64,000 nt of DNA from Nesterenkonia ebinurensis. Lineage in GTDB: Bacteria; Actinomycetota; Actinomycetes; Actinomycetales; Micrococcaceae. The DNA is taken from contig NZ_VWNF01000045.1 of assembly GCF_008711175.1 (NCBI RefSeq), forward strand, positions 1-64,000, given 5' to 3'. Both the position numbers and the translations under genes were made by a program. The notes below the pieces were generated by a model that did not search any database, was not told the origin of the DNA, and worked only from the letters and a program-made list of their open reading frames with translations. Shown here piece by piece: positions 18,406 through 33,464 of this stretch (positions within the stretch are counted from its first letter, which is position 1; each line of letters starts with the position of its first letter).

Positions 18406-18633
18406 TGCGACGACGCAAACCGCAGACTGTGCAACCAGGCGTTCTTCTCAACGATCTACGTCGATGAGGACAACGACATCCATGTTGGCTACGCCCGGCC
18501 CTTCGATGCCCTGTGCGACGCCGAGACCCAGGCCGACGCGTTGACCTGGGCGCAGAACGCCCGCAACGAGAACGAGGCCCGAACCCCGTCCAAGAGTGGT
18601 CCCTTGGTCGAAAGTTCGAACCTCATTCGATAG
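18406..18633 (+). pseudogene. C-terminal relic of a large serine recombinase
   Basis: Seventy-five open codons read CDDANRRLCNQAFFSTIYVD, then continue through the PFDALCDAETQADAL segment and end TPSKSGPLVESSNLIR. This is the C-terminal coiled-coil/beta-ribbon end of actinobacterial large serine recombinases. The catalytic domain and most of the zinc ribbon are missing. It lies just after the VOC gene, so an element once ended or integrated here. Confidence 0.7.
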
Positions 18634-18765
18634 GGGTCCCTACGTGACACGTTCGCAAATTTTCCCCCTCGGACGAAAACCCTGGCAACTCGCTGGTATC
18701 GGGGCGTCTATCGGGATGCGAGACGCCCCAGCGGACCTCCCTCGAACGATGTTCGGGGTCCGATC

Positions 18766-19107
18766 GTGCAGAGGATCGAGACGGCTCAAACATTTCTGAC
18801 GGCCTCCGAGATCGACAGTCTTGTCGGGGACTACCTCGCGGGTGCGACCGTTCAGGAGCTCGCGCAGAAGTACGGGATTCATCGGGCGACGGTGTTCGCC
18901 CATCTGCGTCGTCGGAACACCCCGCGCCGGGTCCCGGGGCTGGATGTGGACGAGAAGGCGGAGACTGGTTCGCTTGTTCCGGGCCAGGGTCTCGATGCGC
19001 GCGATCGCTCGACGCCTGAGGGTCAGCCGCAAGGCCGTACGGAGGGTTCTGGTCGAAGCCAGCGCGAACTGGGAGCCCGAACGAGCTGCTACTGCGAGGG
19101 GACCTGA
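18766..19107 (+). pseudogene. Recombinase-like helix-turn-helix protein, frameshifted
   Basis: The frame reads RIETAQTFLTASEIDSLVGD and then a clear helix-turn-helix (ELAQKYGIHRATVFAHLRRR). Near 18,965-18,972 the sense continues in another frame with a second helix-turn-helix (LFRARVSMRAIARRLRVSRK). Two tandem units like this are seen in recombinase tails and in the intact protein at 26,564. One indel has broken it. It shares its first segment with the relic at 12,600. Confidence 0.6.
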
Positions 19108-19165
19108 TCAGCCATCGTGGACACTTGATCGTGCGTAAGTGGTCACGGTCGAGTACGCTGGAGGC

Positions 19166-19495
19166 ATGGAGAGCATGACCGTGAACCCGGCACACCTGTC
19201 GAGCGACGACTGGGCGCGCGTGCGCGCGTTCCTGGACTCGGCGAAGAAGCGCGGCGAGGTCGTCGACTTCTCCACCCGTGTGGAGCTGCTGACCCCGGCG
19301 GAGGTCGCCCGGCGGCTCGGGATGTCGCGGTCTACGGTGCTGCGCCGGATCGCCGAGGGCGACATCCAGGCCACCAAGGTCGGCACCCACCACCGCATCC
19401 CGCTGAGCGAGTACGAGCGGTACAGCCGTGAGCTTATGCGTCGCATGGCCGAGGCATCCGCGGCTGACATCGAGGCCGAACTGTTCGGTGAGTGA
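19166..19495 (+). CDS. Helix-turn-helix (excisionase/MerR-like) antitoxin
   Basis: A 106-109 residue protein. A GGAGG site lies one base from the ATG at 19166 and ten from an ATG at 19175, so the second may be the real start. Its centre is an excisionase-type winged helix: LLTPAEVARRLGMSRSTVLR, then IQATKVGTHHRIPLSEYERY. It overlaps the PIN gene by eight bases. HTH_17 plus PIN pairs are known type II toxin-antitoxin modules, so this is most likely the antitoxin and autorepressor. Confidence 0.8.
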   Translation: MESMTVNPAHLSSDDWARVRAFLDSAKKRGEVVDFSTRVELLTPAEVARRLGMSRSTVLRRIAEGDIQATKVGTHHRIPLSEYERYSRELMRRMAEASAADIEAELFGE

Positions 19496-20201
19496 AGCAG
19501 CGCTGCTCTTCCTGGACGCCAACGCGCTCGCCTCGCCCGTCACTCGCACACTGCTGATCGCCGGAGCGCGGGCAGACAGTCTGCGGTGGACATGGTCGAA
19601 GCACGTCGAGGCCGAAGCCGACCGACACGCACGCGGTCAGGCATCGAGAACCTCCCTCGTGCGTACGGAGATTCTCGGCACCGAGCTGTCACCCACTGCG
19701 TCGAACACAGAAGGGCTGCTGACCAGCACCCTTGAGGATCGGCAGGTGGTGGCTGACGCGATCCGCGCGGGAGCTCGCTACCTCATCACGACCGACGTCG
19801 ACGACTTCGCCTTCGACGATCTCGCGGCATATGGGATGAGCGCGGTGAACCCTGACTACTTCATGGCGTCACGGTTCACCGAACAGGCCTACCAGGAAGG
19901 CATCGATCTGCTCGCAGCCGTGCAGAGGAATCCGGCGCGCACCGCACCCGAGATCCACCGGATGCTCGGCCGCCGACATCCCCGCTTGGCCGCGCGCCAC
20001 TCCAAGGCCTATGGCGCGATTCCAGTTCCGGCCGATCCTGACCAGCCGAGCATCATCTTCCGGGGAGCGGCCTGCATTCGTTGCGCGGCGCGTCTTGATG
20101 ACACGGTGGGTTTGCAGCACGGGCTGTGCCCGGAGCACCTGAGTCTCGGATCGGGCAACAATGTCAGTGGCGCCAGCTACGGTTCTGGGTATGGCGAGTA
20201 G
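19488..20201 (+). CDS. PIN-domain toxin-like ribonuclease with C-terminal Cys/His extension
   Basis: About 237 residues from the GTG at 19488, which overlaps the antitoxin stop. The PIN fold shows LLFLDANALASP at the start, acidic residues mid-domain and ITTDVDDFAF near residue 105, the metal-binding set of PIN nucleases. The C-terminal ~90 residues are unusual. They carry CIRCAARLDD, then LCPEH, a possible small zinc site not found in short VapC toxins. It probably cleaves RNA and is held by the upstream helix-turn-helix protein. Confidence 0.8.
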   Translation: MSEAALLFLDANALASPVTRTLLIAGARADSLRWTWSKHVEAEADRHARGQASRTSLVRTEILGTELSPTASNTEGLLTSTLEDRQVVADAIRAGARYLITTDVDDFAFDDLAAYGMSAVNPDYFMASRFTEQAYQEGIDLLAAVQRNPARTAPEIHRMLGRRHPRLAARHSKAYGAIPVPADPDQPSIIFRGAACIRCAARLDDTVGLQHGLCPEHLSLGSGNNVSGASYGSGYGE

Positions 20202-20209
20202 TTCTCACA

Positions 20210-20314
20210 TGAGCCCATACGGCTCGGCATGCGATCTTCCTTCTGTCAAGGAGGTGGAGCAGCAGATGGCTGCGTTCAGGCTGCTCGGTTTCCTGCTGCC
20301 GCGCGCGGTGTGAG
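20210..20314 (+). CDS. Short hypothetical ORF
   Basis: A 34-codon frame from the ATG at 20210 (MSPYGSACDLPSVKEVEQQM), ending TGA just before the next frame. It could be a broken 5' part of the following HEPN-like fragment or chance. I do not recognise it. Confidence 0.2.
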
Positions 20315-20317
20315 GAC

Positions 20318-20713
20318 ATGGTGGCTTGGGACAGCGTGGCTGGGCATCACTTGGGTCTGAGTCACGCTCACCAGTCGTTCGTCAAAGGTTTCTACAAGAC
20401 GGACACGGTCGAAGTGACCGAGCTATTCCGCAACGGCATCATGCACGGCACTTTGGTCAACTTTGACAACGAGGTCGTCGCCACCAATGCCTGGAACCGT
20501 CTCTTCGCCGTTGCTGATTGGGCGGACGCACGGGAACGGCAAGTGAAGCCGGTCGAACCGACCCCCACGCTGCGGGAGTCCCTGAATCGATGGCAAGACA
20601 TCCAGGACCAGAAGGCCAGGATCGCAGGGTTCAGGCCTCTGCCGTTGCACGATGAGAGGCGCATCTACTCGAACGTCAAGAGCGTAAGCACGCCGCGAGG
20701 CGTCATTCAGTGA
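20318..20713 (+). pseudogene. Probable C-terminal fragment of an R-x4-H (HEPN-like) protein
   Basis: A 131-residue frame. Residues 35-46 read TELFRNGIMHGT, an R-x4-H motif (R38-H43) of the kind that forms the HEPN ribonuclease active site. It is followed by NFDNEVVATNAWNRLFAVAD. Proteins with this ending are usually longer, so the N-terminal part seems lost; no good ribosome-binding site precedes the ATG. It lies after the PIN module in a region rich in relics. HEPN membership is my inference. Confidence 0.5.
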
Positions 20714-20813
20714 TGCAAGGCCAGAACCCCGCTCCATAGCTCCTATCCTCGGCGGCCTAGAGGCAGCCGGGTGCCACATCGTGGCATCACACTTTCTCCT
20801 CATGCCCGCGGTG

Positions 20814-21392
20814 TCAGTCTCGCTCATCATTTTCGTCTAGGACGTCGGCGAGAGCTCGTAGACCGGTGGCGATGTCTGCCCCGGTGGGAGTGGTGTCGGG
20901 GTCGATGAGCCATTGCACGACAAGCCCGTCGGCCAAGATGTTGGTGACTGCCGTGACCGCGCGGGCGGTCGGCTCGTCAAGTGCGGGGTGGAGCGTGCGG
21001 GCGTGCTCACTTCCTCGTGCCAGTTCTTCGGTCTGGAACGCGGCGAGCCGCTCGCGCAGCTCGGGTGAGCGTTCGACCTGCGCCCAGGCTTCGACCTGGG
21101 CGATGAGCAGAGGCCGGTACTCGGCGAAGGTGTCGATGATCCGTTGCCATGCGGCTGGGAACGCGCCTCGGGCATGCTCGTCCTGGGTGTGCTGAAGCAG
21201 GGCGGCGTTCATTTCGCTGACCGCGGACAGCAGCGCGGCGTCCAGGAGGGCTTCCTTGGTTCCGTAGTGGTAGCCGATCGAGCCCAGGTTGGTCCCCGAC
21301 GCCGCAACAAGATCCCGCGCGGTCGTGCGGGCATAGCCCTTGTCGTACAGGCAGCGTTTCGCCCCCTCCAGCAGTGCTTCGCGATGTCCCAT
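20814..21392 (-). CDS. TetR-family repressor of the divergent MFS exporter
   Basis: 192 residues from the ATG at 21392 (MGHREALLEGAKRCLYDKGY); an in-frame ATG nine codons upstream is also possible. The helix-turn-helix is TTARDLVAASGTNLGSIGYH. The C-terminal domain looks like the TetR_C type of multidrug regulators. The gap to the exporter gene contains a tandem 13-bp repeat and a TATAC...GTATA palindrome over a good promoter, so repression of the pump is the likely role. Confidence 0.88.
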   Translation of the reverse strand: MGHREALLEGAKRCLYDKGYARTTARDLVAASGTNLGSIGYHYGTKEALLDAALLSAVSEMNAALLQHTQDEHARGAFPAAWQRIIDTFAEYRPLLIAQVEAWAQVERSPELRERLAAFQTEELARGSEHARTLHPALDEPTARAVTAVTNILADGLVVQWLIDPDTTPTGADIATGLRALADVLDENDERD

Positions 21393-21417
21393 AACTCGGC
21401 ATTCTACCGAACCCATC

Positions 21418-21469
21418 ACACGAACGTCTTACACGAACGTCTTGACAGAGATTTATACGCACGTAGTAT
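21418..21469 (+). promoter_or_regulatory. Promoter and operators of the DHA2 exporter gene
   Basis: ACACGAACGTCTT is repeated perfectly in tandem at 21418-21430 and 21431-21443. The -35 TTGACA is at 21442-21447 and a -10-like TAGTAT about 16 bp on. A palindrome TATAC-N7-GTATA (21453-21469) covers the -10. The 13-bp repeats end at the -35, so one factor could sit at either place; the palindrome suits the TetR dimer. Confidence 0.65.
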
Positions 21470-21506
21470 ACAAACGTCCTAATCTTTTGTCTGACCCTGG
21501 AGAACC

Positions 21507-23051
21507 ATGACCGACGACGCCGCCGCCCGTGCCGGACGCAAGGAGTGGATCGGGCTGGCTGTCCTGGCCGTACCCGCTCTGCTGGCCGCGACCGATCTAT
21601 CGATGGTGTTCATGGCCGCGCCATGGATCAGCGCTGATCTGGAACCCACCGGCAGCCAACTGCTGTGGATCATGGACATCTACGGCTTCGTGCTCGCCGG
21701 GCTGCTGATCACCGTTGGAACCCTGGGAGATCGCATCGGCCGGCGGCGACTCCTGATGATCGGCGCCGTCGTGTTCGGCGGAGCCTCGCTGCTGGCCGCC
21801 TTCTCCACCAGCGCCGAGATGCTGATCGCGGCGCGAGCACTCCTCGGTGTCGGAGCGGCGACACTTGCTCCGACCACCCTGGCTCTGGTGCGCCAGCTCT
21901 TTCGCGACGAACGGCAGCTTCGGACGGCGATCGGCATCTGGGCGGCCTCGTGGAGCGCCGGTTTCCCGCTCGGAGCCCTGCTGGGAGGTCTGCTCATCGA
22001 ACACTTCTGGTGGGGCTCGGTGTTTCTCGTGAACGTCCCCGTCGCTGCGCTGCTGCTGGTACTCGCACCACTGCTGCTGCCCGAGTCCACCGACCCTCGA
22101 CCCGGCAGACTCGACTTGTTCAGCGCGGCGTTGGCCATGGCGTCCGTGCTCACGCTGATCTGGGCACTGAAGCAAACTGCCGAGCACGGCTGGAACCTCG
22201 GGCCCATCGCGGTAGGCATCGTGGGACTGGTATCCGCGACGGCTTTCGTCCGTCGCCAACGCCGGCTGACAAGCCCGTTGATCGACGTCACCCTCTTCCG
22301 CCGACCAGCCTTCTCCGGGGCGATCGGGGCCAACACGATGCTGGCGCTGTCCAGCGCCGCTTTGGGCATGCTCGCTTTCCAGCACCTCCAGCTCGTGCTC
22401 GGCTACCGACCCTTCGTCACCGCGCTGTGGATGGTCCCCGTTGTGGCTGCCACCATGGTCGGCATCGCTGTGGCAACCGGGGTGGTTCGCCATCTTCGCC
22501 CAGCAATCGTCGTCGGCACTGGGCTTGTGATCGCCGCGATCGGCTTTGCCTTGTTCATCCGACTAGAGGCCACTGACACCCTGGCCACAGTGCTCCTCAG
22601 CTACGGCATCCTCAACTTCGGCATGGGCATGGTCACCACTTTGGCCTATGACCTGATGATCGCCGCCGCACCCCGAGAACAGGCCGGCGCCGCCACCGGT
22701 GTCAATGAGACCGGCACCGAACTCGGTAGCGCACTGGGCATAGCCGTCCTGGGCACCATCGCCACCACCGCCTACCGCAATCGCATCCTCGACACCATGC
22801 CCGACAGCGTGCCAGCCGAAGTTGCCGACATCGCCAGCGGATCGCTCGGCGGCGCGACCGCAGCCGCAGAAACACTACTCCCGACACGTGCTGCCGAACT
22901 GCTCACGCACGCCCACGATGCCTTCACCGCCGGGATCAACGTGACCGCGAGCATCGCCACCGTACTCCTGACGGTCACCGCGGTGACCGTCACCATAGCC
23001 CTGCGCAACGTTCGCCTCGACGACACACCAACGCAACGCCGCGACCGATGA
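21507..23051 (+). CDS. DHA2-family multidrug MFS exporter (14 helices)
   Basis: A 514-residue membrane protein resembling QacA/SmvA/LfrA proton antiporters. Helix 1 has the DLSMVFMAAPWISADLEP type motif with a membrane Asp, the loop 2-3 motif is GTLGDRIGRRRLL, and motif C-like AASWSAGFPLGALLGG is in helix 5. About 14 helices fit DHA2. It should expel cationic drugs or biocides. Expression is probably controlled by the divergent TetR gene. Confidence 0.9.
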   Translation: MTDDAAARAGRKEWIGLAVLAVPALLAATDLSMVFMAAPWISADLEPTGSQLLWIMDIYGFVLAGLLITVGTLGDRIGRRRLLMIGAVVFGGASLLAAFSTSAEMLIAARALLGVGAATLAPTTLALVRQLFRDERQLRTAIGIWAASWSAGFPLGALLGGLLIEHFWWGSVFLVNVPVAALLLVLAPLLLPESTDPRPGRLDLFSAALAMASVLTLIWALKQTAEHGWNLGPIAVGIVGLVSATAFVRRQRRLTSPLIDVTLFRRPAFSGAIGANTMLALSSAALGMLAFQHLQLVLGYRPFVTALWMVPVVAATMVGIAVATGVVRHLRPAIVVGTGLVIAAIGFALFIRLEATDTLATVLLSYGILNFGMGMVTTLAYDLMIAAAPREQAGAATGVNETGTELGSALGIAVLGTIATTAYRNRILDTMPDSVPAEVADIASGSLGGATAAAETLLPTRAAELLTHAHDAFTAGINVTASIATVLLTVTAVTVTIALRNVRLDDTPTQRRDR

Positions 23052-23487
23052 GAAGCCGTCCAACCGCGTGTTCCTGCGCTTCGCTCGACGAGTACCGACC
23101 GCCGGCTCGCAACCGTGCCGATGACGTCACGATCCACCTGACCTTGCGTGAGGAAGGTCGGAACGCATTGGGGCGAAGACCACGAACGGCTCGAACGGCA
23201 CTTGGAGGTGTGCCGTGAACTGGCTGAGTCGTCCGAGCCGGACCTTGCGCGGCTCGGAGCGCGAGGCGTCGAGAACTTTGAACCGCGTCTGCTCGAGGCG
23301 AGAGCCTCTGCACGACGGGCCGCGGTGCGTGGGACACTGGGCTGGTGACAGCGCCGCCGACGTCTGCTAACGAACGGCACAGCGCCCAGAATGAAGCGCG
23401 CCGATCAGATTCAGATAGGCTCGAACGCGCTCTGAGATCGCAGCTGGACGGCGTCTAGCTCACCATCGCCAACGGTAACTCGCTCAC
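23052..23487. other. Degenerate stretch with a 66-codon fragment
   Basis: A GTG-started frame at 23148-23348 reads KVGTHWGEDHERLERHLEVC and ends in LLEARASARRAAVRGTLGW. The composition is that of real coding sequence, but the frame is closed just upstream and there is no ribosome-binding site. It is probably the tail of a lost gene. The rest shows no coding sense. Confidence 0.35.
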
Positions 23488-23643
23488 CTATGCAGCTTTC
23501 TCAGCGGCGGCGAGGCAGAAGTCGTCGTTCATCTTGATGACTAAGGCCACGGTCAGCCGCAACGCGATCATGTAAGTGTGGAAGTGCGCGTCTTCTCCTT
23601 CAGCGTTGTCCTGGGACCCATGCGAATACTTGTTCCGCAACGC
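23488..23643 (-). pseudogene. Detached HEPN-like C-terminal segment of the 619-residue protein
   Basis: In the -1-type frame relative to the gene at 23,600, codons from 23,643 down to a TAG at 23488 read ALRNKYSHGSQDNAEGEDAH and then TYMIALRLTVALVIKMN up to EKAA. L-RN-x-x-x-HG is the R-x4-H signature typical of HEPN domains (R-N-K-Y-S-H). It joins smoothly to FSNGP of the upstream protein if one of four C (coding strand, 23644-23647) is removed. The separate stop at 23600 is therefore probably due to a +1 frameshift. Confidence 0.7.
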
Positions 23644-25459
23644 GGGGTCCGTTGCTGAAATCAGCCGCGTTGAGGAAGTAGTTGAAGTACTCTCCTTCGG
23701 CTCCAGAGAGCAGCGACGACTGTCGTTTCACCCAACCCTTGGCGACCATCGCGTCTGCAACGGCGCGTCCGCGGTCCGAGAGACGGAAGTAGTTCGCGCA
23801 CTGCGTGTTGAAGATGGCCGACAGGATTCGAAACTGCTCGACGTTGACGAGCTGCACCCTGGTCCCGTCGTTATCAACAATCCCGAGTTTGATCAGATGG
23901 TCGATCGCTGGCTTCTGGTAGTCGTGGAAGTCGTCGTACGCGACCTCGTTCTTTAGCAGGAGCATCGCGCCGTTGTCACCTCGCAGCTCTTTACTGATGT
24001 AGTTCACCGATGCCTGGTCGGAGAACAACAGGTTCAGGATGCTTGTAATCTCGTCGGTCTCAGTCGCGTAGAGGTACTTGCCATCAAGAAGGCTTGGTAT
24101 GTACTTGTACCGAACCTGTTCCGACCCCATGGCGAGCAGGTCGCGGTCGAGTTCACAGTCTTTGGCGAACAGGCTGAACTGGCTCGCGACGCTCTCCATC
24201 TCCGCGAAGAGATGCCGCACCTTCTGAAGATACGAAGCTCCGGCGCCAGACGGGGTGAAGGAGAAGTTCTCGACCCGGAACTCCTCTACGAGGTACTCCT
24301 CGAAAAACCAGGAGATCACCTGCTCCAGGTCGATGTCCTTGGACTCTAAGAAGTGATGGTACATGCGGATCTGGAGGAGCGAACTCATGTCGGTCGTCCA
24401 GAACACGGTGCCGGTCCTGTACTCGGTCCTTCCTGGCGTCCCCATGAACCGTTCCATCACGCCAAGGCTCGCCGGGTATGACGGCAGAGTCAAGAGCCCA
24501 TTCCGGTCGACGAACCCGAACAGGTTGATGAAGTTGTTCAAGATGCTGGGGTTGTCGCAAGTTTCCTCAAGCCAACGTCGGCTGTACGTGTAGCGGCACA
24601 CCAAGCCGTCCGACTTATCAAGTTCCATGGCGGCCGCTTCTTCCTGATCAGCGATGCTCACTTCGCAGCCGGTCCTAATGCCGTCGTTGTCCTTGAAGAA
24701 CTTCGAGCTCAATTCTTCGTCACGCCGCTTCGCGCGCAACTTGAGTCGCGCGTCAATTCCTGCCGCTGGCGTCTCCTTGGCAGACGCGATCAGTCCGACA
24801 TAGTTCGGATTGGCCTCCTCACCATCGATGTACTGCTCCAGAAGCACTTGAGAGTCTTCGGGGGTGAAGCTCCGCGGAAGGTGGATGTCATCACGCACAT
24901 CCTCTTGGAGGTACTTGCGCATCACATGCTCCGCCCCCTGAGGCGAGGTCAGCAACTTCGTGCGAACCTCGGCGTCGTAGGCCTGAACCAACTTCTTGCA
25001 CCCGAGAATCTCGCCAAGATGTACCCCGGCCGCCGAGAGCGCAGGCAGGACTGTGGCGGCGTCACAGCGCTCGTATGCCTTGTTCCGACCAAGGAGCTCG
25101 AGAAGGTCTCCGTGGTAGTCGTACCTGCCCTCTGCCACACCGTCGATCACGGTCGCCACACTCGTGTCGTCGACGCCCGAGAAGAACCGCGCGACCGCAC
25201 CACGAATCTGCGGGATGCGCGCCTTTGCCCGGGCGTACTGTTCCTCGTTGTAGGTCTGCGGCAAGAAGCCGTGCTCAAGATACTGCTGAACGTTATGCAG
25301 CTCGAGGATGTCGACAGTGCTCGTAGGTGCGTTCTCGGGGTCGAACTGTTCAGCGAGATCGGCTGCCCGCTGGACGAACACGCCTGCCGCTAAGTCGTTC
25401 GGGCCGAAGAACTGAACCCTTCGAACTTCCTCGTCCTCTTCACTCACTTGCAGGCTCAT
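23600..25459 (-). CDS. Large unknown protein, probable HEPN-containing defence/RNA protein (C-terminus frameshifted)
   Basis: A 619-codon frame with a strong GAGGAG ribosome-binding site before the ATG. I do not recognise the family. It is hydrophilic, has no signal or membrane helices and no P-loop. A winged-helix-like segment sits near residues 510-560 (IDHLIKLGIVDNDGTRVQLV). The last 14 residues are nonsense-like; removing one C restores 51 residues with an R-N-x3-H motif (see 23488-23643), for about 656 in total. It is followed upstream, after a terminator, by an NYN gene. A role in phage defence or RNA cleavage is inference. Confidence 0.6.
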   Translation of the reverse strand: MSLQVSEEDEEVRRVQFFGPNDLAAGVFVQRAADLAEQFDPENAPTSTVDILELHNVQQYLEHGFLPQTYNEEQYARAKARIPQIRGAVARFFSGVDDTSVATVIDGVAEGRYDYHGDLLELLGRNKAYERCDAATVLPALSAAGVHLGEILGCKKLVQAYDAEVRTKLLTSPQGAEHVMRKYLQEDVRDDIHLPRSFTPEDSQVLLEQYIDGEEANPNYVGLIASAKETPAAGIDARLKLRAKRRDEELSSKFFKDNDGIRTGCEVSIADQEEAAAMELDKSDGLVCRYTYSRRWLEETCDNPSILNNFINLFGFVDRNGLLTLPSYPASLGVMERFMGTPGRTEYRTGTVFWTTDMSSLLQIRMYHHFLESKDIDLEQVISWFFEEYLVEEFRVENFSFTPSGAGASYLQKVRHLFAEMESVASQFSLFAKDCELDRDLLAMGSEQVRYKYIPSLLDGKYLYATETDEITSILNLLFSDQASVNYISKELRGDNGAMLLLKNEVAYDDFHDYQKPAIDHLIKLGIVDNDGTRVQLVNVEQFRILSAIFNTQCANYFRLSDRGRAVADAMVAKGWVKRQSSLLSGAEGEYFNYFLNAADFSNGPRVAEQVFAWVPGQR

Positions 25460-25691
25460 CTCTCCTCGCGAACTGGAACAGCGTCAATGTGGCCCACAGG
25501 ACCGACACAACTGGTCACAGGACGCGTAATCGTTGATGCACCCTCGGTTCTCCCAGCAGCGGCCGCAGCCTGTCTAGCTGACACTCGATTCGCTCCTCCG
25601 CAGCGCACCGTGATGCGTTCCTCCTTCCGCCGCTTATGGCTCACATGTACTGAAGGCAGCAGTGTGGCCAACAGAAGCGCTGAGACGAAAG

Positions 25692-25716
25692 AAAACCCGG
25701 CCCCAGAGGGGCCGGG
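25692..25716 (-). terminator. Rho-independent terminator of the NYN gene
   Basis: On the minus strand CCCGGCCCC-TCT-GGGGCCGGG is followed by TTTT. This 9-bp GC stem lies about 36 bp after the NYN stop. It separates NYN transcription from the large unknown gene downstream. Confidence 0.85.
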
Positions 25717-25752
25717 TGGTATGGAAGAAGCATAGCAGTCTGACAGGCTTGA

Positions 25753-26487
25753 CTACCACTCTGGTGGCTTCGTGATGCGCGGAGCGATGGTTGGTGGAAG
25801 CTGGTGCTCATACCAGTCGGAAGGCTGCATCTGGTACCACCAGTGGTCGCCCACGCCATCGGTGTGCTCGCCAGCGAGCTTACCGGCTCGATAGCCCTTC
25901 GTGGGGTTGACGAGTCCGATTGGCACTTGATCACGCGCGTAGGTGACAGGGTAGGACAGGTCGCTGTCGTTGGAGATGACCACAGCTGCGTCTACTGCGT
26001 CGGTGAGAATATCGATGAGCAGGTGTGAGGCGACGTTGACATCGGAGCCTTTCTCTTCGCGGCGAGCGACTGATGCCATGAACCGGGCGTCAGGGACGTC
26101 TTGCTCGGCTCCGTCCTGCACCATTAACGGCCATTGAGGGTTGCTGATGACAGGTTTGCCGTTCCGGCCGGCGGTCGCGAGCGGTGCTGTGGCGACCCGA
26201 GCGACGTAGTTGCCGTAGCTGATTTGAGTGACAGAGCCGGAGCGTTGCAGTGCACGCAGGTAGACATCCTGTTCGCGCTGGCCGGCGGGGTTACTGGCTC
26301 CACTCACTCTTGCGGTGCAGTAGGTAATCGTTTCGACCGTCGAATTCTCCCAGCGAGAGTGCGTGCTGATGAGACCGTGCGCCAACGATCGCAGATCGAG
26401 CCAACGCCATCCAGGCGTCGAGCGCCCGCACAAGCCTCGACCACCGTAGTAGAGGTTGTAGCCGTCTATGTAGATCCCGACTCGCAT
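25753..26487 (-). CDS. NYN-domain (PIN-like) ribonuclease family protein
   Basis: A 244-residue protein started at the ATG at 26487, because the NYN fold begins [16 protein letters not shown] at once; an upstream in-frame ATG at 26679 would overlap the divergent gene. Conserved acids are Asp8 and Asn11, then [13 protein letters not shown] and [13 protein letters not shown], the metal site of the LabA/NYN family. The C-terminal ~50 residues are specific to this branch. A divergent helix-turn-helix gene faces it across 76 bp, and a terminator follows. It may act in RNA decay or defence. Confidence 0.85.
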
Positions 26488-26492
26488 GTTGG

Positions 26493-26530
26493 TAATGGTA
26501 CGTGGAACATCCGATAGACGATGACCATTA
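26493..26530. promoter_or_regulatory. Inverted repeat in the NYN/HTH divergent promoter region
   Basis: TAATGGT (26493-26499) and ACCATTA (26524-26530) are perfect inverted 7-mers 24 bp apart. They lie in the only gap between the two divergent starts and may be operator half-sites for the helix-turn-helix protein. Confidence 0.45.
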
Positions 26531-26563
26531 GCTACTCCAGCCAAAGCCTCGGAGAATATCGAT

Positions 26564-27133
26564 ATGAATGCCGCCAGACCTGACAAGCATGTCGTTGAGG
26601 ATGGAGCTGAGGTGAGCAGGTCGCTGGTCGACATTTTCTCGCGCCCAACACCTGCTCTGACACGGCTGATCGAACACATCCGTCAAAACCCCGAGTTGAC
26701 GGAAAGCCTCGCCGCTGGCCACTCGCTAACGTCGTCGCGCTGCCGATACCGTCAAGGACGATCTACAGGTGAACCGAATTCCGGTGCTGGCTCCACTGCG
26801 CGACGAGAATTGACGAAGCAAAGTCGTCGCACGGTTTCACCCGGGATAGAGAAGGCCAGAGCATCGGTTCTTCTTCCGCTCGTCGTGGACTACGCCAATG
26901 GCTTGACTCAGGCAGAGATTGCCCGGAAGCACGGTGTCCACGCTCAGACTCTGCGAAAGCGGCTCCGGGAAGCTGGGGTCAATACCCGGGTACGTGTCAC
27001 GGCCCTCAGTGAGAGCGAGGTGCAGGCGACTCGTGCTGTCATCTCTGAGGGTGCGAGTGTTCGGGCGGTCGCTCGTCGTCTTGGTGTTGCGCACACGACG
27101 TTGCTGCGGGCGCTCAAGCGAAGCTCGGAATAG
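26564..27133 (+). CDS. Protein with two recombinase-type helix-turn-helix units
   Basis: A 189-residue protein. The N-terminal 100 residues are polar and unassigned ([20 protein letters not shown]). The C-terminal part has two tandem helix-turn-helix units: [20 protein letters not shown] and [20 protein letters not shown]. These resemble the DNA-binding tails of serine recombinases and the broken gene at 18,766, but no catalytic Ser domain is present. It is divergent from the NYN gene and likely regulates it. It could be a domesticated recombinase tail. Confidence 0.7.
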
Positions 27134-27245
27134 GGGAGAGGATCACCATTGCGCACCACTTAGGTAGCGCTCTTCGTGAGCAGTCATGAGGGTCGATCAC
27201 TGTTGTGCACCAGTATCGAAACAGGGTCTGACCAGGGGATATGTG

Positions 27246-27284
27246 AAAAACATTGCCCCCGGCTCGAAAGCCGAGGGCAATGTT
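27246..27284 (-). terminator. Rho-independent terminator of tRNA-His
   Basis: On the minus strand CATTGCCCTCGGCT-TTCG-AGCCGGGGGCAATG is followed by TTTTT. The 14-bp stem with one mismatch lies five bases past the tRNA 3' end. Confidence 0.9.
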
Positions 27285-27289
27285 GCCTG

Positions 27290-27362
27290 GGTGAGCGACG
27301 GGGCTTGAACCCGCGACCCTCGCGACCACAACGCGATGCTCTACCAGCTGAGCTACGCCCAC
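27290..27362 (-). tRNA. tRNA-His (GTG anticodon)
   Basis: The minus strand folds as a 73-nt tRNA: acceptor GTGGGCG/CGCTCAC, D arm with AGCTCAGCTGGTAGAG, anticodon loop TTGTGGT with anticodon GTG, T loop GGTTCAAGC. The base before position 1 is G and the discriminator base is C, the G-1:C73 identity pair of bacterial tRNA-His. CCA is not encoded. tRNA-His next to orn is a common arrangement in Micrococcales. Confidence 0.95.
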
Positions 27363-27460
27363 CATGTGCTTCTCAGGAGATCAAACCCCGGGCAAAGCAA
27401 CCAATACATCATACATCTGCGGTGCCGCAGCGTCGAGTTGCACACGGTGCTGTTAGAGGT

Positions 27461-28039
27461 TCAGCGCAGCATGTGCTCCCGGTAGTGCTTTAGCTCAGTG
27501 ATGGAGTCCTGGATATCACCCAGCGCCCGGTGATTGCCGGTCTTCTCAGGAGCCGAAGCTCGCACCTGGGGATACCAGCGCTTGGCCAGCTCCTTCAGTG
27601 TGGACACATCAATGATCCGGTAGTGCAGGTATTGAGTCAGAGCAGGCATCCCCAGCCGCAGGAAAGCCTTATCAGCATGCACCGTGTTCCCCGCCAGCGG
27701 GGCTCTGCCAGCCTCAGGAACCCAGGTCTGCACATACTCCAGCACCTTCTTCTCAGCAGATTCCAGGGCAATCCCGTCCTCAAGCTCGGCCAGCAGGCCT
27801 GATGAGGTATGCATCTCCCGCACCACCTTCTCCATCCCGGCCAGCGCCTCCGGGCCAGGGCGGATCACCACATCCACACCCTCGCCCAGCACATTGAGGT
27901 CAGAATCGGTGACCAGAGCGGCCACCTCGATCAGCGCGTCCTTCTCCGGATTCAGTCCGGTCATCTCACAGTCGATCCACACCATCCGGCCGGACCAATC
28001 GCCCCCAGCTGCGGGGCTCTGAGCAGTCGATTCAGTCAC
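27461..28039 (-). CDS. orn: Oligoribonuclease
   Basis: A 192-residue DEDDh 3'-5' exoribonuclease that degrades di- and short oligonucleotides, including pGpG. Motifs are VWIDCEMTGLNPEKDALIEV (ExoI, Asp-Glu), GNTVHADKAFLRLGMP (ExoII), and NHRALGDIQDSITELKHYRE (ExoIII with the His). A 20-residue N-terminal extension precedes the domain; a later ATG (MVWIDCEM) is possible but would trim the first strand. It is divergent from the mannosyltransferase operon and upstream of tRNA-His. Confidence 0.95.
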   Translation of the reverse strand: MTESTAQSPAAGGDWSGRMVWIDCEMTGLNPEKDALIEVAALVTDSDLNVLGEGVDVVIRPGPEALAGMEKVVREMHTSSGLLAELEDGIALESAEKKVLEYVQTWVPEAGRAPLAGNTVHADKAFLRLGMPALTQYLHYRIIDVSTLKELAKRWYPQVRASAPEKTGNHRALGDIQDSITELKHYREHMLR

Positions 28040-28081
28040 AGAGGAACACTCTACTACCGGTGCCCGCGTAAACTCAGGCGG

Positions 28082-29587
28082 GTGAACACAGCGCCGCGCG
28101 GAGTGATCCTCTACGGCCTACTCGGCTCGGTGCTGATTCTGCTCGGCTCGCTCGGAGCAGGCTGGCTGGTCAGCGACTCCCCGCTGAACCGCTGGGAGCC
28201 CACCATCTGGCTGCGAGCCGAGACAGGCGGCGTCGTGCTCTCCGTGACTGCCCTGACCGCCGGCTGCTGGATCCTCTTCCATGCCTGGCTTCGGCTAAAA
28301 CACATCACAGACGACGACGCCCGCCCTACCGGACTACACACCGTCACCGCCGCGGCACTGATCTGGTCCATCCCGCAGCTGCTGGCCGTGCCGATCTTCT
28401 CCCGGGATGTCTTCGCCTACCTGAACCAAGGCCGGCTGGTGCTCATGGGGGAGAACCCCTACACCACCGGAGTCTCCGCACTGGAGAACTGGTTCCAGCT
28501 GGGCACCGACCAGGTGTGGGCCGAGGATCCCACCCCCTACGGGCCCCTGTTCCTGTGGATCGCCGCAGGGGTGATGGACCTCTCCGGGGACTCCGCAGAG
28601 CTGGCGATTCTGCTCTTCCGGCTGGTCTGCGTGCTCGGCGTGCTGCTGATCCTGGTGATGGTTCCATTGCTGGCCCGGACCCTGGGTGCCGAGCCGGCGA
28701 AAGCCCAGTGGGCAGCCTCCGCCAACCCGCTGCTGATCATCAGCTTCGTCTCCAGTGCGCATAATGACGCGCTGATGGTGGGTCTGGCCCTGGTGGGCAC
28801 CTGGCTGGCCATCCGTGCCGGTCAGCGGTGCAGCACCGCCCACCTGCTGTTGGGCTTAGCGGCGGTGCTGTGCATGGTGGCCTCCATCGGTACCAAGCTC
28901 ATCACCCTGGTGATGCTGCCCTTCATCGCCCTGCTCTGGGCAGGTGCATCAGCCAGTTGGGCTAAACGGTTCAGCTACTGGGCGTTAACCGCAGCACTTG
29001 CCGGGGCCGCGCTGCTGGGTATTGGAGCCCTCGGCGGATACGGGCTCGACTGGGTCACTGTGCTGGCCGGGGCAGGGTCCGGGGCCAGCTTCTGGGCCCC
29101 GCTGACTATCCTGACCGCCCCCTTCGCCGGTCTGCTTCTGCTGATTGGTCAGTCCCCGGATGCCGCTTACGATATCGCCGGTGTGATCGGCCGGCTCGCT
29201 GCAATCGCGGTGGTGCTCTACCTGATGTTCCGCGGCAGCGCCGACCGGATCTACCACCGCATGATGTGGGCGTTCGCAGCAGTGGTGCTGCTCTCCCCGC
29301 TGATCCAGCCCTGGTACCTGCTGTGGATCCTGCCGCTGTTCGCCGCAGCAGGGGCACTGACCGGCACCTCCAGGCGCTGGCCGCTGGCCGCAACTGTGGC
29401 CGTCACCGGGTTCTTCCTGGCCCAGGGGGCGGCCGACCAGCTGTTCGTCCACCAGTTCCTGGAACTCGACACCGCGATGGTGCTGCTCTCGGTGGGCATC
29501 TCCGTGCTCAGCGCCACAATCATCTGGTTCACCGATTCTCAGGCCCGCTCGGTAGTGTTAAGCAGTGCCCCAGACCCCGCCCAGTAA
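28082..29587 (+). CDS. MptB-like polyprenol-phosphomannose-dependent alpha-1,6-mannosyltransferase
   Basis: A 501-residue membrane protein from the GTG at 28082; upstream in-frame codons would overlap orn. About 12 hydrophobic helices are visible. The GT-C/MptB features include IFSRDVFAYLNQGRLVLMGE (first luminal loop with the catalytic-type Asp) and SSAHNDALMVGLALVG. Such enzymes extend the lipomannan core using C35/C50-P-mannose. It overlaps the next gene, a paralogue, by 23 bp, heading a three-gene GT-C cluster. Confidence 0.85.
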   Translation: MNTAPRGVILYGLLGSVLILLGSLGAGWLVSDSPLNRWEPTIWLRAETGGVVLSVTALTAGCWILFHAWLRLKHITDDDARPTGLHTVTAAALIWSIPQLLAVPIFSRDVFAYLNQGRLVLMGENPYTTGVSALENWFQLGTDQVWAEDPTPYGPLFLWIAAGVMDLSGDSAELAILLFRLVCVLGVLLILVMVPLLARTLGAEPAKAQWAASANPLLIISFVSSAHNDALMVGLALVGTWLAIRAGQRCSTAHLLLGLAAVLCMVASIGTKLITLVMLPFIALLWAGASASWAKRFSYWALTAALAGAALLGIGALGGYGLDWVTVLAGAGSGASFWAPLTILTAPFAGLLLLIGQSPDAAYDIAGVIGRLAAIAVVLYLMFRGSADRIYHRMMWAFAAVVLLSPLIQPWYLLWILPLFAAAGALTGTSRRWPLAATVAVTGFFLAQGAADQLFVHQFLELDTAMVLLSVGISVLSATIIWFTDSQARSVVLSSAPDPAQ

Positions 29588-31226
29588 CCGGTTTTCGCGT
29601 GCGGCAGACTCCGCCCGCGAAATCCTCGGCAATTTTAAGGGCACCTCCTGGCTGATCGGCGGCCCCGAGGGCCAGGTCTCCCATACTCTGCGCCAGGGCT
29701 TCCTGGCTGCGGTGCTGATCATGGTCGGCTCCTGGGGTGTGGGCTGGCTGGTCATGGTCCCAGGCTCCTGGCTGCAGCTGCACCAATGGCTGCTGCCGGT
29801 GCGCACCACCACCGCCGGAGTGATCATCTGCGCAGTGCTGCTGGTGTTCGGCGCCCTGCTGCTGCTGCGCTCCTGGCTGAGGCTCTCCCAACGGATCACC
29901 GGATGGGATCACGACGTCGCCCTGCCCACTATGCGCAAAGCAGTCCTCCTCTGGGGGGCACCACTGCTGGCCTGCTTCCCGATCTTCTCCCGTGACGTCT
30001 TCTCCTACCTTGCCCAGGGAGGCCTGCTGCAAGCCGGACAGAACCCTTACGAGGCCGGAGTCTCCGAACTGCCCGGTTGGTACGGCATCGGCGCAGATGA
30101 GCTCTGGGCGGAGTCCCCCTCACCCTACGGTCCGCTGTTCCTGCTGTTGGCCCGGGGCATCTGGTTCCTCTCCAACGGCACCCCGGAGTTGGCGGTGCTG
30201 CTGTTCCGGGCACTTTCGGTCTTCGGAGTGGCCCTGATGCTGCTGATCATTCCCATGCTGGCTCGGGCCTTCGGCTCCCAGCCGGCCTGGGCCATCTGGC
30301 TGTGCCTGCTCAACCCGGTCAGTCTGATCGTTTTCATCCCCGCCGCCCATAATGACGCCCTGATGATGGGCCTGGCACTGGCCGGCATCTGGTACGCGCT
30401 GCGCCGCCGCAGACTGGCCTCCTGGCTGCTGCTGATCGCCGCAGTGGCCATCAAACCGGTGGCCATGGTGCTGCTGCCCTTCGCTGTGCTGCTGCCGCTG
30501 AGGGACACCGGAAACTACCTGCACCGGATCCGGGAGTGGGCTCTGGCGGGGTGTCTGGCCGCCGGGCTGCTGTTCGGCGGCGGCTGGCTGATCGGGGTGG
30601 GTATCGGCTGGTTCACCACCGCACTGGGGGCCGGGGGTGAGGCCTTCCAGGCTGCACCGGTGGGGCTGCTCGGGCTGGGACTGGGCTGGCTCATCGAGGC
30701 TGCCGGCGGGCCCGGCCACCAGGAGACGGCAGGCTGGTTCTATGCCGCAGCCCGGATCCTCTCCGCAGTGGTGCTCACCGTGATGCTGCTGCGCCCGGCG
30801 TTGGGCAACCCAGTGCTCTGGGCGGCCTACGGACTCACCGTGGTGATCCTGACCTCCTCGATCATCCAACCCTGGTACCTGCTCTGGCTGCTGCCGCTCT
30901 ACGCGGTGGTCCACGTCTACCGCGGTCGGGCGCTGATGCTGGTCACCCTGCTGATCACCGTGATGACCCTGCTGGCTATGGTGGGCCAACTCTCCGTAGC
31001 CCAATGGCTGGACAGCGTACTGGTCCAGCTGATCGCCCTGGGCGTGGCCGCAGCCTATCTCATCTACATTGTGCTGCTGGATCCCAACACCGCCGCCATG
31101 TTCCAGCTGCGCGAACGCTCCGAGCGGTGGAACACCACCGACGGCTGGCTGAGACTGAACCGGCTCTCCACCCCGGAGACCTCCTGGTCGGTGACCAGCC
31201 TCACCCATAGGGCTGGGCAGACATGA
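29565..31226 (+). CDS. MptB-like mannosyltransferase, paralogue of the preceding gene
   Basis: A 553-residue GTG-started membrane protein. It repeats the MptB marks of its neighbour: IFSRDVFSYLAQGGLLQAGQ, AAHNDALMMGLALAGI and IQPWYLLWLLPLYA. It has a longer soluble N-terminus (~55 residues) and a polar C-terminal tail with RERSERWNTTDGWLR. The pair looks like a tandem duplication that diverged, perhaps for backbone priming and elongation (MptB and MptA roles). It overlaps the GT87 gene by ATGA. Confidence 0.85.
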   Translation: MPQTPPSNRFSRAADSAREILGNFKGTSWLIGGPEGQVSHTLRQGFLAAVLIMVGSWGVGWLVMVPGSWLQLHQWLLPVRTTTAGVIICAVLLVFGALLLLRSWLRLSQRITGWDHDVALPTMRKAVLLWGAPLLACFPIFSRDVFSYLAQGGLLQAGQNPYEAGVSELPGWYGIGADELWAESPSPYGPLFLLLARGIWFLSNGTPELAVLLFRALSVFGVALMLLIIPMLARAFGSQPAWAIWLCLLNPVSLIVFIPAAHNDALMMGLALAGIWYALRRRRLASWLLLIAAVAIKPVAMVLLPFAVLLPLRDTGNYLHRIREWALAGCLAAGLLFGGGWLIGVGIGWFTTALGAGGEAFQAAPVGLLGLGLGWLIEAAGGPGHQETAGWFYAAARILSAVVLTVMLLRPALGNPVLWAAYGLTVVILTSSIIQPWYLLWLLPLYAVVHVYRGRALMLVTLLITVMTLLAMVGQLSVAQWLDSVLVQLIALGVAAAYLIYIVLLDPNTAAMFQLRERSERWNTTDGWLRLNRLSTPETSWSVTSLTHRAGQT

Positions 31227-32494
31227 CCGTCACCCGGCTCTCCCCGCGCACCATCACTGTGCTGCTGGTCGCCACGGCAATCGGCGCGCTGCTCTCGGTA
31301 CTGGCCGTACAGTGGTGCCGGGTCAACGGCTGGACCGACCCAGCCCAGCACCTGGCCATGTGCTACTCCGACTTCCCGCTGCTCTTCGCCGAGCGTGGCC
31401 TGGCTGCCGGCGCGTTCCCCTTCATCACCGAGGTCTCGGCGGAGCAGACCATGGAGTACCCGGTCCTCATCGGGGTGGTGGCAGGACTCATCGCTGCAGT
31501 CATCCCTGGTCAGGACGCCACCGAGCTGCGCACCCTGGCCTTCCACGACCTCAACCACCTGGCCGTCATCGGCTGCTGGGCAGCCCTGGTGCTGATCACC
31601 GCAGCCTGCCTGCCACCAGCACGACGCCGCCACGCCCTGTTGGTTGCCCTGGCCCCAGGGATCATCCTCACCGTCTCGATCAACTGGGATATGTGGGCCA
31701 CAGCCTTGGGAGCAGCCGCCCTGCTGGCCTGGGCAAGGAACCGCCCAGTGCTGGCCGGGATACTGATCGGACTCGGGGCGGCGATGAAGCTCTATCCGCT
31801 GCTGTTCCTGGGGGCGATCATCGTGCTGTGCCTGCGTGCCGGCACATACCGGCCCCTGGGCGGCGTCGTCATTTCGGCAGTGACCACCTGGCTGGCGGTG
31901 AATCTGCCGTTTATGCTCAGCCAGCTTCAGCAGTGGCGTCTCTTCTATCAGTTCTCCTCTGAACGTGAGCCCGGGTTCTCTTCAATCTGGCTGGCCTTGG
32001 CGCCCACCGGCTGGTCGGGGGAGACCTTCTCACTGCTGTCCAACGGGCTGTTCCTGCTCTGCTGCCTGGCCATCCTGGCCCTTGGTCTGCGAGCGCCCCA
32101 AGCCCCCACCGTCGCCCAGCTGTGTCTGCTGATTGTGGGCTGCTTTGTGCTGCTGGGCAAGGTCTACTCCCCGCAGTTCGTGATCTGGCTGATCCCGCTG
32201 GTGGTGCTGGCAGTCCCGAGGGTGCGGGTGTTCTGGATCTGGCAGGCTGCCGAAGTCTTCCACTGGGCCAGTGTGTGGCTGATCAGCGCAAAGATCACAG
32301 CGGAAGAGACCGGCGGGGACTTCGGGCAGGGTCACTATGTGTTCGAGACGCTCTACGGGCTGGGCATCGCCGCGCATATGCTCACACTGATCTGGATCCT
32401 GGCCCTGGTGGTGGGCGAGATCATCAGACCCGCGCAGCCAGAACCGGATCCGCTGGCCGGACCCGCCGCAGAACAGAGGTACACCCATGGTTGA
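31223..32494 (+). CDS. GT87 family (DUF2029) membrane glycosyltransferase
   Basis: A 423-residue protein with about 10-12 helices. The long first loop has a Tyr/Asp-rich segment (CYSDFPLLFAERGLAAGAFP), and ISINWDMWATAL plus IGLGAAMKLYPLLFL are the usual GT87 features, as in PimE-type mannosyltransferases. It starts inside the stop of the MptB paralogue (ATGA) and overlaps the AEC gene by 8 bp. With its neighbours it probably builds lipomannan or a related mannan using polyprenyl-phosphate sugars. Confidence 0.82.
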   Translation: MTVTRLSPRTITVLLVATAIGALLSVLAVQWCRVNGWTDPAQHLAMCYSDFPLLFAERGLAAGAFPFITEVSAEQTMEYPVLIGVVAGLIAAVIPGQDATELRTLAFHDLNHLAVIGCWAALVLITAACLPPARRRHALLVALAPGIILTVSINWDMWATALGAAALLAWARNRPVLAGILIGLGAAMKLYPLLFLGAIIVLCLRAGTYRPLGGVVISAVTTWLAVNLPFMLSQLQQWRLFYQFSSEREPGFSSIWLALAPTGWSGETFSLLSNGLFLLCCLAILALGLRAPQAPTVAQLCLLIVGCFVLLGKVYSPQFVIWLIPLVVLAVPRVRVFWIWQAAEVFHWASVWLISAKITAEETGGDFGQGHYVFETLYGLGIAAHMLTLIWILALVVGEIIRPAQPEPDPLAGPAAEQRYTHG

Positions 32495-33464
32495 GATGCT
32501 CACCGTGATCGCCCCGCTGTTCGCGATCATCCTATTGGGCTTCGGGGCCGGGTTCGCCCCGCGCATCCTGGCCGCCTCCGGCCACCTGAACGCCTTCGTG
32601 TTCTACTTCGCCCTGCCCTGCTTCATCTATACCGCGATCATCTCCGCACCTCCGGTGGGGCATTTCCCGTGGGTGATGCCGTTGATCGTGCTGGTGGTCA
32701 CCCCGGCCCTGGCCATCGGGCTCTACTGCCTCTGCCGGGCCCTGGGCGGACTGAGCCGGGATCTGGCCGCACCGGTCTCGCTGGCAGGAAGCTTCGGCAA
32801 CGTGGGTTACTTCGGCATCCCCATCTCCATCGGGGTGCTGGGTCCGGAGGCCGGGCTCACTGCCGGTGTGGTGCATATGGTGCACAATATCTTCTTCATG
32901 AACGGCTACCCGCTGGTGCGCACCGCAGTACGCACCCGGGAGCTTGAAGGGGCTGCAGCCAGTTTCGGGGAGCTGTGGCGCCGCCAGCTCTGGCCCATTC
33001 TGCGCCGCGGACTGGTGCTGAACCCAGTGTTCTGGTTCATGGGACTCTCCCTGCTGGTGGTACTGACCCCGCTGAGCATGCCGCAGCTCTTCGACGAACC
33101 GGTGGCCATGCTCGGGACGACCGCGGTGCCGCTGGCCCTGTTCTGTGTGGGCCTGGCCCTGCATCCGGCGCTGCAGGGGGTGCGCAGCGGGGCTGTGCCG
33201 GTGCTTCCCATTGGCTTCGGCACCGCCGCTAAGCTGCTGATCCTGCCCGCAGCCACCTGGCTGGCGGTACTGCCGTTCTCAGACCAGCTGGGCCCGGTAT
33301 GGGCTGGCACACTGATCATCCTGGCTGCCACACCCTCCTCCACCACGGCGTTCATCTTCTCTGAGACCTACGACGGCGATGGCCGGATGGCGGCTGCCGT
33401 ACTGGTGGCGACTACCGCAGTCTCCCTGCTCACCCTGCCGCTGGTGGCCGCGGTTCTGCTGTAA
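32487..33464 (+). CDS. AEC-family (auxin efflux carrier type) transporter
   Basis: A 325-residue protein of ten predicted helices in two inverted repeats. FVFYFALPCFIYTAII lies in repeat one, with the conserved SLAGSFGNVGYFGIPISIGV helix break (helix 4 Gly-Asn) and, in repeat two, AATPSSTTAFIFSETYDGD. The family exports organic anions such as malate. It overlaps the GT87 stop by eight bases, so it is in the same transcript although no functional link is obvious. Confidence 0.88.
   Translation: MVEMLTVIAPLFAIILLGFGAGFAPRILAASGHLNAFVFYFALPCFIYTAIISAPPVGHFPWVMPLIVLVVTPALAIGLYCLCRALGGLSRDLAAPVSLAGSFGNVGYFGIPISIGVLGPEAGLTAGVVHMVHNIFFMNGYPLVRTAVRTRELEGAAASFGELWRRQLWPILRRGLVLNPVFWFMGLSLLVVLTPLSMPQLFDEPVAMLGTTAVPLALFCVGLALHPALQGVRSGAVPVLPIGFGTAAKLLILPAATWLAVLPFSDQLGPVWAGTLIILAATPSSTTAFIFSETYDGDGRMAAAVLVATTAVSLLTLPLVAAVLL

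Follow-up and report, generated by a model that had tools for sequence, protein, structure and literature searches.

Among described defence proteins, Tha of Staphylococcus aureus prophages carries a C-terminal HEPN domain (R265NSIMH270) that acts once the infecting phage makes tail protein (PMC11087260). The features of HEPN domains, as set out in PMC3710099, are an Rx4-6H motif, a polar residue (N, D or H) after the arginine and an acidic residue in helix 2, often as Ex3[KR]; DUF4209 is listed there as a HEPN family. Phage-defence candidates (PDCs) were found by guilt-by-embedding, and within the core defensome the majority of them await validation according to a paper on archaeal immunity (PMC12988326), which cites Payne et al. 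2024 (bioRxiv 10.1101/2024.01.29.577857). Here we consider a gene of the candidate family PDC-S56 that lies in the first 64,000 nucleotides of contig NZ_VWNF01000045.1 of Nesterenkonia ebinurensis, the stretch called the window below.

We find it probable that this gene is a recently frame-shifted, horizontally acquired PDC-S56 copy, that the defence island holding it at tRNA-His is in decay, and that intact members of the family are single-protein abortive-infection effectors with an RNA-cutting R-N-x3-H site. This is no new kind of system. What it offers is a plausible mechanism, a C-terminal HEPN-type ribonuclease (RNase), for a single-gene defence candidate found across actinobacteria, plasmids, phage contigs and Bacteroides ihuae, and one that is directly testable in intact relatives.

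Compared by description only, PDC-S56 resembles Tha in having a putative C-terminal R-N-x3-H effector behind an N-terminal part in which no domain is recognised, and in being phage-carried, as are the copies on the phage contigs L038 and L039. It differs in size, with ca 650 residues against 301 for Tha, and no winged helix is described for Tha in that account (PMC11087260).

Family assignment and frame break

In an hmmscan search against PADLOC-DB, the 619-codon open reading frame (ORF) matches PDC-S56 (PDLC05039) with an E value of 3e-218, covering positions 4-597 of the 649 in the model; another PDC-S56 model in the same database matches it as well (E 5e-13). While the initial annotation regarded the protein as unrecognised, its family is thus, by profile, an already known single-gene phage-defence candidate, listed in PADLOC-DB (2023). 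No Pfam or NCBIfam model scored above its cut-off, sub-threshold matches such as Nitrophorin (E 0.048) being the only ones obtained, where the NCBIfam search covered three homologues. PHROGs gave no convincing match and a PDB sequence search no relevant one, and in the main texts covered by a literature search neither the name PDC-S56 nor anything on its mechanism was found.

The window gene matches the family profile over two pieces, but these are in different frames. The first, 23642-25429, corresponds to model positions 4-597 and the second, 23497-23646, to positions 596-645 (E 3.1e-17). Since the two overlap at 23642-23646, a frame change at this place is certain for the sequence as given. 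The last 14 codons of the ORF are out of frame, with residues unlike those preceding them. The 619-codon ORF, its odd 14-residue ending, the run of Cs at 23644-23647 and the end of the alternative frame at 23488, all pointed out in the initial annotation, are present in the sequence. In contrast to the window copy, the intact members, among them those of Corynebacterium pacaense (L002) and of a Marmoricola metagenome-assembled genome (MAG; L004), are read in a single frame, and they share the ending that the window gene holds in its second piece.

Third codon positions have a G+C content of 0.77 in the main frame and of 0.79 over the 48 codons of the tail frame, against 0.44 over the 16 codons of the out-of-frame ending. 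Together with the profile match to both pieces, this speaks against chance or a spurious ORF, a reading we reject. Between the window and C. pacaense, the ratio of nonsynonymous to synonymous substitution rates (dN/dS) amounts to 0.17 over the 599 codons of the main part and to 0.09 over the 48 codons of the tail; with L004 as the partner, the values are 0.19 and 0.06 (46 codons), those of the tail being imprecise owing to its short length. For L002 against L004, both of them intact, they are 0.17 and 0.08, and the window tail is therefore without sign of relaxation. It follows from the coding-like G+C and the low dN/dS of the tail frame that the frame change is either recent or an error in the sequence.

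The second option, a sequencing or assembly error in a strain that carries a working gene, would also fit these values of the tail, as well as a difference of one base in a short run. However, the contig keeps long ORFs intact nearby, at 27809-33464, and the island decays in other ways too, as seen from a 64-codon relic of a partner gene. Other copies of the family are also broken, although any single one of them may itself be an assembly error: that of G162 is split near model position 88 and that of Cellulosimicrobium near 345, while nothing beyond positions 353-640 is left in G168, and G469 has just a fragment. The four broken rows of the tree discussed below (window, G162, G168 and Cellulosimicrobium) require four changes. 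An error is on this evidence rather unlikely, but it deserves to be taken seriously.

Another option considered was switchable or recoded expression, in which slippage at the run gives some full-length protein, either by phase variation or by +1 ribosomal frameshifting at CCC-C. The frame change does lie in a CCC-C context, and such contexts are prone to +1 slippage. However, four bases are short for phase variation, and 19 of 21 homologues lack the four-C run, while the two that have it at the frame-change codons (L011 and L012) still read through in frame. We regard this scenario as very improbable. Of the origins offered at the outset, recent loss and sequence error both stand, while phase switching finds no support.

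Because the window ORF ends upstream of the motif, its product should be inert as a nuclease; it would hold the presumed sensor without the RNA-cutting site. The frame change thus hides the likely catalytic end, and surveys of PDC-S56 may count the broken copy as whole. At the other end of the gene, translation may natively begin at a GTG (25447) and not at the ATG (25459), for a stop directly precedes that point in the two nearest homologues, L002 and L003 (the latter from a Pimelobacter MAG).

The R-N-x3-H tail

Of the fetched homologues, 21 extend into this region, and every one of them has the R-N-x3-H motif in frame, with 40-63 residues after the histidine; none of these ends like the window ORF, which lacks the motif. 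It is important to point out that the 21 include near-copies (L009/L010/L013 and L017/L020), and that L003, whose contig ends before the region, three Enterococcus faecalis plasmid matches and a Bacteroides ihuae control match were left out. The hidden tail and its motif, as read in the initial annotation, are borne out.

In 15 full-length homologues, R603, N604, H608, E583, Y586, Y589, N592, Y624 and K637 (L002 numbering) are invariant throughout. The aligned set covers the phylum of the window, Actinomycetota, a Pseudoalteromonas plasmid, an Enterococcus plasmid and two phage contigs, and the invariance of the motif R, N and H and of the glutamate 20 residues upstream holds down to 21-22% identity to L002. 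With regard to the HEPN features given above, the Rx4-6H spacing is present in the 21 homologues and in the window tail, and the residue after the arginine is asparagine in 21 of 21. E583 lies in a predicted helix before the motif, with no K or R at +4 in L002.

The C-terminal fragments match HEPN_Swt1 (best E 0.062) and DUF4209 (best E 0.1) weakly, in two of 15 members each. Like the DUF4209/C6orf70 and Swt1-like HEPN families (PMC3710099), PDC-S56 has R-N-x3-H followed by a helical tail; the profile support is, however, not significant. On the basis of the invariant motif, the invariant upstream glutamate and the weak profile matches, the C-terminal part likely belongs to the HEPN superfamily.

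A number of results weigh against this assignment. The comparison by hhalign with a self-built Swt1-HEPN alignment was negative: neither the tail (P 0.036 to 0.14) nor the other parts of the protein (P 0.6-0.83) reached a probability of 1%. The predicted helices come in an order that fits a four-helix bundle with the motif ending helix 3, but the motif loop has a predicted local distance difference test (pLDDT) score below 50. No HEPN structure was among the matches listed for the C-terminal model by Foldseek and VIA-align, nor among those listed for the full-length model by VIA-align; the listed folds were winged helices, generic bundles or otherwise unrelated. Both models were built on shallow alignments (6 and 7 rows). 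Finally, the winged helix, which is the confident part of the C-terminal model, resembles MarR/ArsR/PadR regulators.

These results would suit a C-terminal part that is some other helical module, for nucleic-acid binding or dimerisation, in which the motif is structural and there is no HEPN RNase. Such a module would not by itself lead one to expect that the R, N and H persist at the identities mentioned, or that two HEPN-type families are matched, however weakly, and we judge it improbable. The HEPN proposal of the initial annotation keeps its motif features and its weak family matches, and it gains nothing from the hhalign and structure comparisons.

Proposed mechanism

We now turn our attention to how an intact PDC-S56 protein of ca 650 residues might act. 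By analogy to Tha, an N-terminal alpha-helical region of ca 340 residues would sense infection and, when this sensor has been set off, the R-N-x3-H site of the C-terminal part would cut RNA, and the infected cell would be stopped. The C-terminal part itself would be a helical bundle, interrupted after its first helix by the winged helix.

A more specific version, which we put forward only tentatively, is a one-protein immune switch. In this version, the winged helix is inserted into the RNase bundle, following a helix at residues 405-429 and preceding the helices with the motif at 581-650 (L002 numbering), and the binding of a nucleic acid or a phage factor, by the winged helix or by the N-terminal helical array, would directly close the HEPN site. 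Such a site could then be costly enough to the host for copies to break again and again in separate lineages.

Distribution and genomic neighbourhood

PDC-S56 was found in one of 30 genomes of the genus, namely that of the window, and in 11 of 295 genomes of the family; order and phylum yielded 3 of 347 and 3 of 396, respectively, where each count includes the window genome and that of the order also the G469 fragment. Named relatives are those of C. pacaense (82%), the Pimelobacter MAG (cut at the contig end), the Marmoricola MAG and Cellulosimicrobium. The family has spread horizontally: five plasmid records carry relatives (four from Enterococcus and one from Pseudoalteromonas), the two phage contigs are from IMG/VR, and Bacteroides ihuae has a match by profile. 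INPHARED phage records gave no match at E 1e-5, and further viral scans either added no contig or gave no match.

The nearest copies belong to Nocardioidaceae and Corynebacteriaceae. The tree places the window copy with those of Pimelobacter and C. pacaense (100/100) ahead of those of its own family, which points to horizontal acquisition of the gene. The DNA similarity to the C. pacaense locus covers 23155-25589 of the window.

The surroundings of the relatives were compared in terms of PADLOC matches at E 1e-10 or better. For 120 neighbouring ORFs in 10 genomes, the matches include IetA, IetS, AbiD (two), AbiEi, Old/GajA, ShosA and others, as well as generic-looking mad3 and AriA matches. 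For 116 control ORFs taken elsewhere in these genomes, those listed are GajB (a UvrD-type helicase), mad3, mad8 and RTasHel. The lists give the first 25 families each, out of 76 and 55, respectively, and the comparison used a crude ORF picker, one other region per genome and a set with near-identical copies (G144, G133 and G172). Other copies lie within ca 5 kb of PglZ (E 1.1e-303), HsdR, MmeI or AbiEii genes, and near a kinase gene. The Enterococcus hirae copy is beside a TIR protein gene and recombinase genes, and the phage-contig copies are near a HipA-like gene and an HNH gene. Both the motif ending and the defence neighbours that were to be looked for in homologues are found, the latter within the limits of this comparison.

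Two further observations concern individual genomes. G210 has two PDC-S56 copies on different contigs (L033 and L034), with some neighbouring genes similar. The G469 fragment (L024) has 166 residues from the middle and motif regions, with R-N-x3-H present, and it adjoins an ORF that by eye resembles the start of an MmeI-type restriction enzyme.

The probable island at tRNA-His

The features of the locus are collected in Table 1.

Table 1. Coordinates of the PDC-S56 gene and of the surrounding island in the window.
Feature	Position	Strand	Basis or remark
PDC-S56 ORF, 619 codons: N-terminal helical region, middle, winged-helix part	23600..25459	-	PDC-S56 profile
C-terminal tail of the PDC-S56 gene, neighbouring frame, R-N-x3-H-G motif	23488..23646	-	profile positions 596-645
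Probable island, ca 8.65 kb, from old flank of tRNA-His to tRNA 3' end	18637..27289	.	G006 comparison
5.3-kb part: small ORF body, TetR, major facilitator superfamily (MFS) gene, relic, PDC-S56	20351..25673	.	absent from G013
TetR regulator, part of the pair adjoining the relic	20814-21419	-
MFS transporter, adjoins the relic	21507-23051	+
Relic: C-terminal 64 residues, 78% identical, of a 1169-residue protein	23154..23345	+	C. pacaense comparison
Protein matching PADLOC HEC-09 (E 3.9e-27)	25753..26679	-	Pfam NYN 23.9 of 24.2 bits, just below cut-off
tRNA-His, right island border	27289..27362	-

Six sites from the same genus were fetched for comparison, and in five of them the main match stops at the 3' end of tRNA-His (27286-27289). 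At the G006 site, one of these five, a 95-bp stretch similar to 18543-18637 of the window (80% identity) directly abuts the tRNA, and from this one short match we infer that ca 8.65 kb has probably been inserted at tRNA-His. The sixth site, that of G013, keeps 18531-20351 and 25673-31503 without the 5.3-kb part, the two matching flanks being 36 bp apart. A direct repeat was searched for at tRNA-His, and none was found.

The protein of which the relic is the end is whole in C. pacaense (L002 10103-13612, minus strand), where its gene is convergent with the intact PDC-S56. It has a P-loop-like motif by eye and no Pfam or PADLOC match. On its other side, the window gene adjoins that of the HEC-09-matching, NYN-like protein, so that it shares with its relatives a place near defence genes; the setting with relics and an NYN gene that had been noted initially is thereby borne out. 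The HEC-09 match is, however, a separate gene, and one joint system with PDC-S56 is unsupported. The protein is 83% identical in G013, which is without the 5.3-kb segment.

Two further ORFs were also noted in the island. The one at 20318-20713 (+) is small and has an RNGIMHG motif and a relative at L051 13665-13964 (37% over 101 residues, E 2e-15), in a genome that also carries PDC-S56; it is possibly a relic of another HEPN-like protein. The other, at 19428-20201 (+), had been called a PIN module, a label that a Pfam search did not back, with no PIN match at E 0.1. Its counterpart in G013 consists of two pieces of 98-99% identity, which overlap and are in different frames.
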